DNA of 54,694 nucleotides from Pirellulales bacterium (lineage in GTDB: Bacteria; Planctomycetota; Planctomycetia; Pirellulales; JADZDJ01), in the NCBI GenBank assembly GCA_035499655.1, contig DATJYL010000191.1, forward strand, positions 1 to 54,694, written 5' to 3'. The notes beneath the pieces were generated by a model. The model was not told the origin of the DNA. It did no database searches and saw nothing but the letters and a program-made list of their open reading frames with translations. Below, piece by piece: positions 50,343-54,694 of this stretch; position 1 is the stretch's first letter, and each line of letters starts with the position of its first letter. A program made the position numbers and the translations under genes.

Positions 50343-50867
50343 ATGGCTCCAATGACAGCGACCCAACCCAAATCGCGAAAAAATCATGCGTTGGAAACAC
50401 CGACAGATTTGAACCGTAGCGGCGTGTCGGAAATTTGCGAAGCACTGCGTTCGGTGCTGGCTGATGTGTTTGCGCTGTATGTGAAAACGAAAAACTTTCA
50501 TTGGCACATGAGCGGGCCGCACTTTCGCGATTATCACTTGCTGCTGGACGAGCATTCGGACCAAATTTTCGCCATGACCGACCCCATTGCCGAGCGCGCC
50601 CGGAAAATCGGCGGAACCACGCTGCATTCGATCAGCGATATCGCCAAGCATCAACGGTTGAAGGACAACAACGAAGAATTTGTCGCACCGCGCGAAATGC
50701 TGGCCGAGCTGTGCAACGACAATCAGCGCCTGACGCGTTCGTTGCGTGAAGCCCATGAAATTTGCGACGAGCACAAAGATGTGGCCACCGCCAGCCTGAT
50801 CGAAGTTTGGATCGACGAAACTGAACGGCGAACCTGGTTCTTATCGGAAATCATTTCCGACGACTGA
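50343..50867 (+). CDS. dps: Dps family ferritin-like DNA-protection protein
   Basis: A 174-residue four-helix protein. Ferroxidase residues are in YVKTKNFHWHMSGPHFRDYH and LLDEHSDQIFAMTDPIAERA (the H, D and E of Dps intersubunit sites). The basic N-terminus (PKSRKNHALE) suits DNA binding. It forms dodecamers that oxidise Fe(II) with hydrogen peroxide and store iron. The gene lies 119 bases before a catalase gene on the same strand, a fitting partner for peroxide defence. GGAG lies before the ATG in AGGAGATCCGAATC. Confidence 0.92.
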   Translation: MAPMTATQPKSRKNHALETPTDLNRSGVSEICEALRSVLADVFALYVKTKNFHWHMSGPHFRDYHLLLDEHSDQIFAMTDPIAERARKIGGTTLHSISDIAKHQRLKDNNEEFVAPREMLAELCNDNQRLTRSLREAHEICDEHKDVATASLIEVWIDETERRTWFLSEIISDD

Positions 50868-50986
50868 GTCCGCAAGGCTGAATTTGAGAATGAGGCGAAA
50901 GGCAAGACGGCAGGCGGCGCTCGGGCCATCACTTTGGAAAAAATGGGGCGCACTTCCAGATCGAAATCATTTCGAAGGAGGGATTG

Positions 50987-51964
50987 ATGCCAGTTGTCGT
51001 CGAAAAACAAACCATAGGCAGAAAAGCTGATCCGAGCGATCCGCTGATCAAGGATTTGCTGCAATCGTTCGACAACGTTTTCGGCCTGCATCCTGGCTTT
51101 CGGCCGGTGCATGCCAAGGGGGTAATGTGCAGCGGCACGTTCACACCCACGGCGGCTGCCAAACAGTTGACGCGGGCTCCGCATGTGGCGCGGCCGACGA
51201 CGAATGTGATTGTGCGGTTTTCGGACTTTGCCGGCGTGCCGGAAGTTCCCGATAATGATCCCCACATTGCCAGTCCGCGGGGCATGGCGATTCGGTTTTA
51301 TTTGGCCGAACACGTGCATACCGATATTGTGGCGCACTCGGCCGATGGCTTTCCGGTCCGTACCGGCGAGGAGTTTTTAGAATTGAATCGGGCAGTTGCG
51401 GCCAGCCTCTCAGCGGCCTCGCATCCCACGCCGGTCGAAGCGTTCGTGATGTCGCACCCCACTGCGCTGGCATTTGTGCAAATGCCCAAGCCCATTCCGA
51501 CCAGCTTTGCGCGTGAGTCGTTCTTTGGCGTGTCGGCGTTTAAATTCACCAATGCGGAAGGCGCCAGCCGGTTTGGCCGGTACCGCATTCTTCCCGAGGC
51601 GGGGAATGAATATCTAACGGACGAGCAAGCGGCGAAGCAATCGCCCAATTTTTTGTTTGATGAATTCACTCAGCGGATTGCCAAAGGGCCAGTGAAGTAT
51701 CGCATGATGGTACAACTGGCCGAAGCGGGCGACAAAACCGACGATGCCACCGTCCGCTGGCCGGCGAATCGGCAGGAAATTGAATTCGGCACGGTCACGC
51801 TGAGCAAGCGCGAAAACGACCAAGAGCCAGAGCTGAAGAAAATCATTTTCGACCCGCGGCCGCAGGTCGACGGCATCGAAGCCAGCGCCGATCCGCTGTT
51901 GGAAGTGCGGGCGAATTTGTATTTGCTGAGCGGCCGGCGACGCCGGTCGGCGAGTGGCCTGTAA
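50987..51964 (+). CDS. Small catalase-family haem protein
   Basis: A 325-residue protein, shorter than typical catalases (about 480 or more). AAGGAGG at 50976-50982 precedes the ATG at 50987. The distal His is in RPVHAKGVMCSGTFTPT, the conserved HAKGxxxxGTF of the catalase core; IVRFSDFAGVPEVPDNDPH and ASPRGMAIRFYL correspond to the Asn/haem-pocket strand. The proximal haem-binding Tyr is expected in the C-terminal EVRANLYLLSGRRRR segment. This small form lacks the flavodoxin-like and helical C-terminal domains, as in organic-hydroperoxide-type catalase-like peroxidases (srpA group). No signal peptide. Confidence 0.9.
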   Translation: MPVVVEKQTIGRKADPSDPLIKDLLQSFDNVFGLHPGFRPVHAKGVMCSGTFTPTAAAKQLTRAPHVARPTTNVIVRFSDFAGVPEVPDNDPHIASPRGMAIRFYLAEHVHTDIVAHSADGFPVRTGEEFLELNRAVAASLSAASHPTPVEAFVMSHPTALAFVQMPKPIPTSFARESFFGVSAFKFTNAEGASRFGRYRILPEAGNEYLTDEQAAKQSPNFLFDEFTQRIAKGPVKYRMMVQLAEAGDKTDDATVRWPANRQEIEFGTVTLSKRENDQEPELKKIIFDPRPQVDGIEASADPLLEVRANLYLLSGRRRRSASGL

Positions 51965-52162
51965 CAAGAAGTTTAAGCCCCGCAGAATTTCAAAGCGGAA
52001 TACTGGAAAAACCAGCGGCGCTCGATTAAAAAAGAAGCGTGGCGGCGGCAGATCGGCCGGCAGCAATGTCGAGAACGATCTGGCGGCTTGGGGGGGAGTG
52101 AGGGAAGCGAATTTCCTGCGGAGGAATTTTGCCGCCAACTCGGACTTTAATTTTCCCTCGCC

Positions 52163-53470
52163 ATGGTTGATGGATTGCCGCGGGTCGTAATTATTGGCGG
52201 CGGCTTTGCCGGATTGAATGCGGCACGAGCTTTGCGCCGTGCACCGGTGCAGATCACGCTGATCGACCGTCGCAACCACCATTTATTTCAGCCGCTGTTG
52301 TATCAAGTGGCGACGGCGGCGCTGAACCCGAGCGACATTGCGGTGCCGATTCGCCGCATTCTGCGCCATCAAAAAAATGTGGAAGTGCTGCTGGCCGAGG
52401 CCAAATCGGTCGACTTGAGTGACAAGATTGTCGTGCTGGCCGACGAAGAGATTTCCTACGACTATTTAATTGTCGCCACCGGAGCGCGGCATTCCTATTT
52501 CGGGCATGAAATGTGGACACCCTACGCGCCAGGCTTGAAGAGCATTGGCGACGCGTTGGAAATTCGCCGCCGCGTGCTGTCGGCGTTTGAGCTGGCGGAG
52601 CGCGAGACCGACCTCGAACTGCAGCGCTCGTGGTTGACGTTTGTGATCGTGGGGGGCGGTCCAACGGGTGTGGAACTCTCCGGCGCGATCTGCGAAATTG
52701 CTCAACACGCCTTGGCTCACGATTTTCGGCACATCGACCCCAAGCAGGCCCGCGTGATTTTGCTGGAAAGCTCAGACCGTGTCTTGAAGACCTTTGCGCC
52801 TAAGCTCTCGGATAAGGCCCGGCGGCAGTTGGAAAAACTGGGCGTCGAAGTGCGGACGAAAAAAATCGTCACATTCATCGACGACCACGGCGTGTTTGTG
52901 GGGGGCCAGCGCATTTGCGCCCGCACCGTGTTGTGGGCGGCGGGCGTCCACGGTTCGCGCCTGGGGCGCATGTTGGGCGTGCGGGTCGATCATTGTGGGC
53001 GCGTTGCCGTGGAACCGACGCTGGCGATTCCGGGCCACCCTGAGGCCTTTGTGGTGGGGGATTTAAGCAGTCTGAAGCTGCCGGATGGCTCGCAGGTTCC
53101 GGGCGTCGCTCCGGCGGCCATTCAAGAAGGCCGGCACGCCGCAAAGAATATTATGCGGGCACTACACAGCCAGCCGCCGCAACCGTTTAAGTACCGCAAC
53201 AAGGGTCAACTGGCGACGATTGGCCGATCGGCGGGGGTAGCTCAGTTTGGCAGAATTAAATTTGGCGGCGTGCTGGCTTGGGCATCTTGGCTGTTCGTTC
53301 ATGTGATGTTTTTGATCGGCTTCCGCAATCGATTCATCGTGACTTTTCAATGGATGTGGTCGTATTTATCGTACGACCGTGGAGCACGGCTGATTACGGG
53401 CCCGTTGCACCGCGATCCCGATCAATCGCGCGCCGAACGGCGGGTTACTTCGCATGTGACCACGCGGTAG
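52163..53470 (+). CDS. ndh: Type II NADH:quinone oxidoreductase (NDH-2)
   Basis: A 435-residue flavoprotein. FAD-binding motif VVIIGGGFAGLNAARAL, then HHLFQPLLYQVATAALNPSD typical of NDH-2, the quinone-site-linked ATGARHSYFGH, NADH-binding motif FVIVGGGPTGVELSGAICE, and the second FAD motif AFVVGDLSSLKLPDG, then VAPAAIQEGRHAAKNI. C-terminal amphipathic/hydrophobic helices (ASWLFVHVMFLIGFRNRF) anchor it to the inner membrane. It passes electrons from NADH to quinone without proton pumping. Start ATG at 52163, weak ribosome-binding site. Confidence 0.93.
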   Translation: MVDGLPRVVIIGGGFAGLNAARALRRAPVQITLIDRRNHHLFQPLLYQVATAALNPSDIAVPIRRILRHQKNVEVLLAEAKSVDLSDKIVVLADEEISYDYLIVATGARHSYFGHEMWTPYAPGLKSIGDALEIRRRVLSAFELAERETDLELQRSWLTFVIVGGGPTGVELSGAICEIAQHALAHDFRHIDPKQARVILLESSDRVLKTFAPKLSDKARRQLEKLGVEVRTKKIVTFIDDHGVFVGGQRICARTVLWAAGVHGSRLGRMLGVRVDHCGRVAVEPTLAIPGHPEAFVVGDLSSLKLPDGSQVPGVAPAAIQEGRHAAKNIMRALHSQPPQPFKYRNKGQLATIGRSAGVAQFGRIKFGGVLAWASWLFVHVMFLIGFRNRFIVTFQWMWSYLSYDRGARLITGPLHRDPDQSRAERRVTSHVTTR

Positions 53471-53500
53471 AAAGGCTGTAGGGCACGAGCACTTGAACAC

Positions 53501-53905
53501 CTAGCCCAATTCCAATTCTCGTAATTTCGGCTCAAGAGTATCAACCGCATCATAGGCTGTTTGTACAGAAAAACTTGAGATTCCTGATTTGGCCAGACCA
53601 TTCTTAACGAGGGTGGGAATTTCACCTGTGGTAACTAATACTACGTCGGTCTTGCCCTGCAGCTGGCAAGAATTGCGGAGTGCACGCAATTGTGATATTG
53701 CCGATATGGGTAAGTGAGTGGATTGAAAACCACTTTTGACCTCTAATGCTAACGATGTACCCGTACTGGGATTTATGACAATCAAGTCTGGCGTCGGAAC
53801 GTTTACCCCGGAGGCCGGCACTTCTATTGTTAACCCCGGATGTTTTTCTTGGAGACGTGCTCCAAGGAGCGAAATGAATTGGTTTTCAGAATCGTTCGTA
53901 ATCAT
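53501..53905 (-). CDS. PD-(D/E)XK nuclease-fold protein
   Basis: A 134-residue protein with a restriction-endonuclease-like core: P39-D40 in VPTPDLIVINPSTG, then E55-V-K57 in LALEVKSG, the PD-x14-E-x-K arrangement that binds Mg2+ for DNA cleavage. A helix with Gln/Arg follows (ISAISQLRALRNSCQL), then VVLVTTGEIPTLVKNGLAKS. Predicted to cut or bind nucleic acid, target unknown. Its ATG at 53905 lies inside the end of the upstream membrane-protein gene (20-base overlap), so the two are translated together. Base composition is lower in GC than the rest of the window. Confidence 0.8.
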   Translation of the reverse strand: MITNDSENQFISLLGARLQEKHPGLTIEVPASGVNVPTPDLIVINPSTGTSLALEVKSGFQSTHLPISAISQLRALRNSCQLQGKTDVVLVTTGEIPTLVKNGLAKSGISSFSVQTAYDAVDTLEPKLRELELG

Positions 53906-54497
53906 ATATTTCGCCCTCGACTTTTAATTCAATTACCAACCATAGCAGAATCGATAAAAATGCCGCCATTCCTGCTATGCCAGCTTCTGTCCATTGTTTC
54001 GTAAACAGCACACTTAAAACTGTCGTAGAAAGTGCTATGGCCACATCCCAATAGATTGTATCAGCAAACCGTCTCCATAGAATCAGAAAAAAACTCAATC
54101 GGAGTCCTGTCGTGATGAGATATTCATCAGAATATTCATCGGAAAAGAGACTGATTCTTACGGATTTATGGCGATAGCCGGCCCTTTTTGCCTGATCTAA
54201 AAAACGCTCAGCGACTTCCTCTGACTTCAGGACAAGTTTCTTTAAATTGCCCCTATCCCGTCGAGATTCTAGATGAACCCGAAATGAACGATCGTCGTCA
54301 ACGAATGCGAGATACAAGCAAGATGACTCAATGTGAGAATAGGCCACATTTGATAAGAGATCTGTATCTGACTTCAGATATGACTGCTTAAGCACTTCTT
54401 CAGGATCGCTTGAATCTGCCATGCCAACAAGCATCCGCGATGGGTCGACGTCATCTCTAAAACGGATTGAAATCTCAGAGTGCATATTCCTTGCCAC
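53886..54497 (-). CDS. Membrane protein of unknown function paired with the nuclease
   Basis: A 203-residue protein (GTG start at 54497, or ATG at 54485 with AAGGA just upstream). The first 125 residues are soluble and charged, with beta-strand-like segments (CLYLAFVDDDRSFRVHLES; HKSVRISLFSDEYSDEYLIT). The C-terminal part has two probable membrane helices (WDVAIALSTTVLSVLF and AGIAGMAAFLSILLWLVIEL). No family was recognised. The stop overlaps the start of the PD-(D/E)XK gene. AT-rich, and adjacent to an insertion sequence, which suggests acquisition by transfer. Confidence 0.65.
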   Translation of the reverse strand: MARNMHSEISIRFRDDVDPSRMLVGMADSSDPEEVLKQSYLKSDTDLLSNVAYSHIESSCLYLAFVDDDRSFRVHLESRRDRGNLKKLVLKSEEVAERFLDQAKRAGYRHKSVRISLFSDEYSDEYLITTGLRLSFFLILWRRFADTIYWDVAIALSTTVLSVLFTKQWTEAGIAGMAAFLSILLWLVIELKVEGEIYDYERF

Positions 54498-54570
54498 AGG
54501 CCGTTCTTATTGTGTTTGCACGACAATCTCCTCATTATAGGGGGTTCTTATTTAGAGCCACCGGACAAAA

Positions 54571-54694
54571 CTAGCTTTCATTAAGCCAAGTACGATAACA
54601 GATGATCGCTGCGGCAAGGGTGAGGAAGGCCTGATGGACGAGTGGGTTTCGGTCCCAGCGGATGCGGAGCCGTCGGAACTGATGCAACCAACTC
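54571..54694 (-). CDS. IS5-family transposase, C-terminal end (partial)
   Basis: Reading in from the right edge, about 40 codons encode LHQFRRLRIRWDRNPLVHQA then FLTLAAAIICYRTWLNES and a stop at 54571-54573, the typical C-terminal tail of IS5/IS1031-type DDE transposases (basic RRLRIRWDRN, then a hydrophobic helix ending CYR). The rest of the transposase is outside the window. The flank at about 54554-54570 (AGAGCCACCGGACAAAAC) may hold the element's end, but its partner cannot be seen. Confidence 0.75.
   Translation of the reverse strand, partial: SWLHQFRRLRIRWDRNPLVHQAFLTLAAAIICYRTWLNES

Follow-up and report, generated by a model that had tools for sequence, protein, structure and literature searches.

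Several known defence systems, among them Zorya, Kiwa and SNIPE, join a membrane protein to a part that acts on DNA, and the Shedu protein SduA senses DNA ends (PMC12904381). The nuclease families Hjc and VRR_NUC both belong to the PD-(D/E)XK superfamily, as is also general knowledge, and motif I of Hjc has the form (G/P)X4EX9-11G(F/Y) (PMC8805305).

Here we report the analysis of a pair of overlapping genes close to one end of a contig of a Pirellulales bacterium, the whole 54,694-nucleotide stretch being referred to below as the window. As both genes lie on the minus strand, the gene for a membrane protein (gene 1) is the upstream one and the gene for a probable nuclease (gene 2) the downstream one (Table 1). 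In our best reading of the sequence the two would form a horizontally acquired ORFan operon. With a probability of about 0.35, we tentatively favour the interpretation that a membrane-anchored partner and an Hjc/Mrr-like nuclease encoded in this operon act against invading DNA. At present the locus is a lead: a rare, foreign and intact gene pair with zero relatives in the collections searched.

Gene pair and base composition

Table 1. Position and basis of the features described at the gene pair (coordinates of the window).
Feature	Position	Strand	Basis
AT-rich island	53472..54554	none	44.1% G+C, NDH-2 stop (53470) to IS end (54555)
Gene 2 (downstream), probable PD-(D/E)XK nuclease	53501..53905	minus	ORF, ATG start, 134 aa
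Overlap of gene 1 and gene 2	53886..53905	minus	20 bases, from ORF coordinates
Gene 1 (upstream), membrane protein	53886..54497	minus	ORF, GTG start, 203 aa
Shine-Dalgarno-like GAGGG	53914..53918	minus	8 bases before the gene 2 ATG; sequence TCGAGGGCGAAATATATG
TTA, likely IS target-site duplication	54552..54554	none	TNA type, as at other copies
Presumed IS5-type element end (transposase C-terminus)	54555..54694	minus	repeat matches and translation; truncated where the contig stops

Neither reading frame is interrupted, and the two ORFs and their overlap agree with a preliminary description of this DNA. An in-frame TAA just before the GTG of gene 1 restricts the start to that GTG or to the ATG at codon 5. 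None of 1000 shuffled sequences reached the 203-codon open frame of gene 1, and 78 of 1000 contained an open frame of at least 134 codons, so that gene 2 is not significant by length alone; its prediction as a gene is supported by the putative ribosome-binding site, the overlap with gene 1 and the motif of its product. Translational coupling through the overlap is likely, and the arrangement suggests that the two genes work together. Simple promoter and terminator scans at the pair returned no more sites than were found in shuffled sequences.

The pair stands out from the window by its base composition. The 1084-base stretch between the NDH-2 stop codon and the IS end has a G+C content of 44.1%, against 56.9% for the whole window, and the contig's lowest 1084-base G+C windows (0.438-0.457) are all located at the gene pair. 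G+C at third codon positions (GC3) is 0.392 and 0.422 for the two genes, compared with 0.63-0.75 in eight other long ORFs. The preliminary description had proposed a foreign composition from two sample counts, 24 G+C of 60 in the nuclease gene (53521-53580) and 39 of 60 in NDH-2 (53101-53160); both counts proved exact, and the low G+C island and the low GC3 of both genes bear the proposal out. Since the degree of foreign codon composition is similar in both genes, they were probably acquired together. No convincing direct repeats long enough for attachment sites were found flanking the pair.

Predicted proteins and the search for relatives

The description of gene 1 as encoding a membrane protein agrees with the two C-terminal hydrophobic segments of its product. 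Kyte-Doolittle windows above 1.3 occur solely at residues 147-166 and 169-198, the two hydrophobic segments covering about residues 147-166 and 171-190 and being separated by a loop of a few residues; this hydrophobic hairpin follows a soluble N-terminal part of approximately residues 1-130. As the protein has no N-terminal hydrophobic stretch, the simplest topology would be a hairpin whose N- and C-termini both lie on the cytoplasmic side. A single-sequence AlphaFold2 model (mean pLDDT 45) places helices at residues 124-147, 150-165 and 171-197, and a fold search with this model was uninformative. Queried whole or in halves, the protein matched no recognised Pfam family. Within gene 1, positions 54120-54143 hold a tandem 12-base unit (ATATTCATCAGA / ATATTCATCGGA), which encodes SDEYSDEY right before the hydrophobic part.

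The gene 2 product carries the motif residues E7, P39-D40 and E55-V56-K57, that is, a PD-X14-EVK arrangement surrounded by strand-forming residues, in which PD and EVK lie between the hydrophobic stretches LIVI and SLALEV. A motif of this type appeared in 29 of 200000 shuffles, for a pattern that was defined after the sequence had been seen. At full length the protein matched neither Hjc nor VRR_NUC in Pfam. When it was trimmed to its core (residues 1-95, or the first helix through EVK) and scanned against all 24736 Pfam models, Hjc (E 0.035) and VRR_NUC (E 0.2) were the sole matches, the former at 14.5 bits against a PF01870 cut-off of 21.1 and the latter likewise under its cut-off. In direct comparisons, which were not blind because Hjc had been suspected from the sequence before the Pfam scan, when the protein was scored pairwise with three solved Hjc sequences, 4, 10 and 3 of 2000 shuffles scored as high; with a profile built from these three sequences the protein outscored all of 5000 shuffles. 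As a control, a YraN/UPF0102-type protein of the host, which is related to the PD-(D/E)XK fold, obtained 14.3 bits with the Pfam Hjc model, close to the 14.5 bits of the gene 2 product; a score of this size is therefore attainable by a remote member of the fold. A search of the genome for a second Hjc-like gene returned the YraN-type protein and parts of unrelated proteins only. The usual spacing of Hjc motif I is not present in the gene 2 product, where E7 is followed by G24 with 16 residues between them, and because its motif I glutamate is off this spacing we do not assign the protein as an Hjc. A single-sequence AlphaFold2 model (mean pLDDT 41) predicts helices (H) and strands (E) as H5-21, E41-45, E50-54, H67-82 and E89-92, an order that would be consistent with the PD-(D/E)XK fold, in which PD and (D/E)XK sit on two neighbouring strands behind an N-terminal helix and are followed by a helix and a strand.

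The preliminary description had called this protein a PD-(D/E)XK nuclease. The motif, the matches of the trimmed core and the Hjc profile scores against shuffles argue for that assignment; both Pfam matches are below cut-off. We consider the gene 2 product a probable PD-(D/E)XK nuclease with an Hjc/Mrr-like core, its fold and activity being deduced from these resemblances. A PDB sequence search with the nuclease gave a single match, a protease, which was judged to be due to chance. The restriction enzyme SgrAI headed its fold-search list (E 3.1); with mean pLDDT values of 41 and 45 both models are poor, and the PDB fold searches were consequently left out of the evidence.

That neither full-length protein belongs to a recognised family, as had been noted from the sequence, was corroborated by searches of Pfam, PADLOC, PHROGs and NCBIfam, in which matches were to unrelated families only, all with E >0.05. 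PADLOC gave no match to the gene 1 product and a sole match to the gene 2 product, Cas4 (E 0.057), which did not include the catalytic region and was of chance level. Plasmids, phages, viral contigs and species-genome contigs yielded no relative of either protein, the searches of viral contigs and species genomes (genome_contigs) being of a kind that reaches close relatives only. In partly overlapping genome samples, no relative of the nuclease was detected among 97 relatives, 397 genomes of the class and 392 of the phylum, the last of these searched with the nuclease alone; none of the membrane protein among the 397 genomes of the class; and none of either protein among 396 genomes of the order. 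The pair is absent from the examined genomes of the same genus and family, and neither gene turned up a second time in the collections searched. All genome-search matches outside the window had E values of 1e-5 or weaker. The two that were inspected (in genomes G336 and G576) lacked a gene of matching frame, one being broken by three stops over other ORFs and one running antisense inside a 703-aa ORF, and they were judged to be chance matches.

The insertion sequence and the surroundings of the pair

The window ends within an insertion sequence, presumably of IS5 type according to the preliminary description and general knowledge, whose end lies 57 bases upstream of the GTG of gene 1. The 19-base terminus of the element, GAGCCACCGGACAAAACTA, begins at position 54555; 14 further sites of the genome carry it, one of them with a mismatch, and most of these sites are close to contig ends. 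With 15 places sharing this terminus, the adjacent insertion sequence that had been described is real. The window stops where the contig does, inside a repeated element, and what borders the pair on that side is thus a break in the assembly. Because the genome contains many copies of this element, finding one beside the two genes is hardly informative about them. The IS breaks the assembly at many places. A diverged copy, 89% identical at its end, was seen inside a contig rather than at its edge (L036, G000:C207:9800-12000) and appears to stop after ~0.5 kb, before a different gene.

Where they border the shared terminal sequence, the outer flanks of the 15 copies end in TTA, TAA or ATA, which fits a TNA duplication. 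Such a target duplication marks the IS1031-like group of IS5-type elements. The outer flanks are often CTTA or CTAA, and the element seems to prefer CTNAG targets, duplicating TNA.

On the readable side the pair is flanked by genes for a Dps, a catalase-like protein and NDH-2. These Dps-like, catalase-like and NDH-2 genes follow one another on the plus strand at 50343-53470 in an arrangement suggestive of an oxidative-stress cluster; another NDH-2, with 54% identity to that of the window, is located at G000:C33. The matching TAA is present at two of the IS copies in which the other end of the element can be seen, one at the start of contig C54 and one at the end of contig C56, next to genes whose products were named from reading the sequences as a prepilin-type protein (C54) and a YggS-type protein (C56). 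One of these two contigs is probably the DNA beyond the IS, in an assembly that may miss further IS copies. In both, the DNA beyond the IS is of ordinary composition (48-61% G+C in 500-base blocks) and no AT-rich genes lie next to the junction. No defence genes were found on the readable side and none were recognisable near the junction in C54 or C56. The link to defence that had been suggested for this locus was thus not borne out by its surroundings, both candidate continuations carrying ordinary genes and showing no sign of a defence island.

Possible functions and comparison with known systems

In the reading that we favour, the gene 1 product would be anchored in the membrane with its soluble part most likely directed toward the cytoplasm, and the gene 2 product would be a small nuclease whose PD-(D/E)XK core is of the Hjc/Mrr-like kind. 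Both proteins would probably be produced together and act together, the membrane protein holding or licensing its partner at the membrane and the nuclease cutting the DNA of incoming phages or plasmids, along the general lines of Zorya, Kiwa and SNIPE. The physical partnership and the defence role are both inferred, the latter by analogy with those systems, which likewise unite a membrane protein and a DNA-acting part. The more specific proposal of a hitherto undescribed two-gene anti-phage or anti-plasmid system, in which the C-terminal-hairpin protein places a stand-alone Hjc-like nuclease at the membrane to cut incoming DNA, we hold to be rather unlikely. Should the pair function in defence, it would form a membrane and nuclease system of very small size, with 337 residues in total.

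Three other explanations must be weighed. The pair may be what is left of a prophage, plasmid or integrative element, with a junction- or repair-type nuclease that would have served the element's replication and a membrane protein that would be a passenger. Its foreign composition and IS neighbour agree with such an origin. So does the closest profile resemblance of the nuclease, which is to the junction resolvase Hjc, and phages are known to carry archaeal-like Hjc proteins (PMC8805305). However, phage and plasmid records contain no detectable relative, the readable flanks carry no other element genes, no direct repeats of attachment-site length flank the pair, and the overlap speaks for joint working of the two genes rather than for a passenger; we regard a mobile-element remnant as possible, if doubtful.

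It is unlikely, in our view, that the pair consists of orphan or decaying accessory genes devoid of present function, what remains of a longer operon after the IS insertion had split off its upstream part: the intact frames, the ribosome-binding site kept by the second gene and the lack of AT-rich genes at the junction of either likely continuation all count against decay, even though the IS end is so close to the GTG, no conserved relatives were found and the simple scan reveals no promoter of its own beyond chance. A nuclease toxin restrained at the membrane by a neutralising partner, serving element stabilisation or cell competition, would suit a small overlapping two-gene operon of foreign composition. 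Nevertheless, no toxin-antitoxin family in Pfam or NCBIfam was matched, no secretion features were seen and, to our knowledge, membrane antitoxins are unusual, all of which renders this last explanation improbable.

Among described families and systems, the gene 2 product most resembles the Hjc/Mrr-like group (PF01870), with which it shares a PAS-G loop, PD and EVK in the same order and at nearly the same spacing. It is also of similar size, having 134 residues where solved Hjc proteins have 123-147; it differs in scoring below the Pfam cut-off, in the spacing of its motif I glutamate and in being paired with a membrane protein. VRR_NUC (PF08774), the second and last weak Pfam match, spans the region from PD to EVK, although the match is short and under the cut-off. 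Shedu (SduA) resembles the pair in being a defence based on a PD-(D/E)XK nuclease and differs from it as a single larger protein without a membrane partner. Apart from the chance-level Cas4 match, neither Shedu nor any other catalogued defence system had a PADLOC model that matched the pair, and this sets it apart from Zorya, Kiwa and SNIPE as well. Zorya has the motor ZorAB and further proteins and SNIPE is a single membrane-bound nuclease, yet both join a membrane part to a nuclease directed at injected DNA (PMC12904381), as is proposed for the pair. The KwaB protein of Kiwa binds DNA without cutting it, but Kiwa too is composed of two genes, encoding a small membrane protein (KwaA) and a DNA-acting partner (PMC12904381). 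If the favoured reading is true, an Hjc-like nuclease would be added to the DNA-acting components that operate at the membrane.
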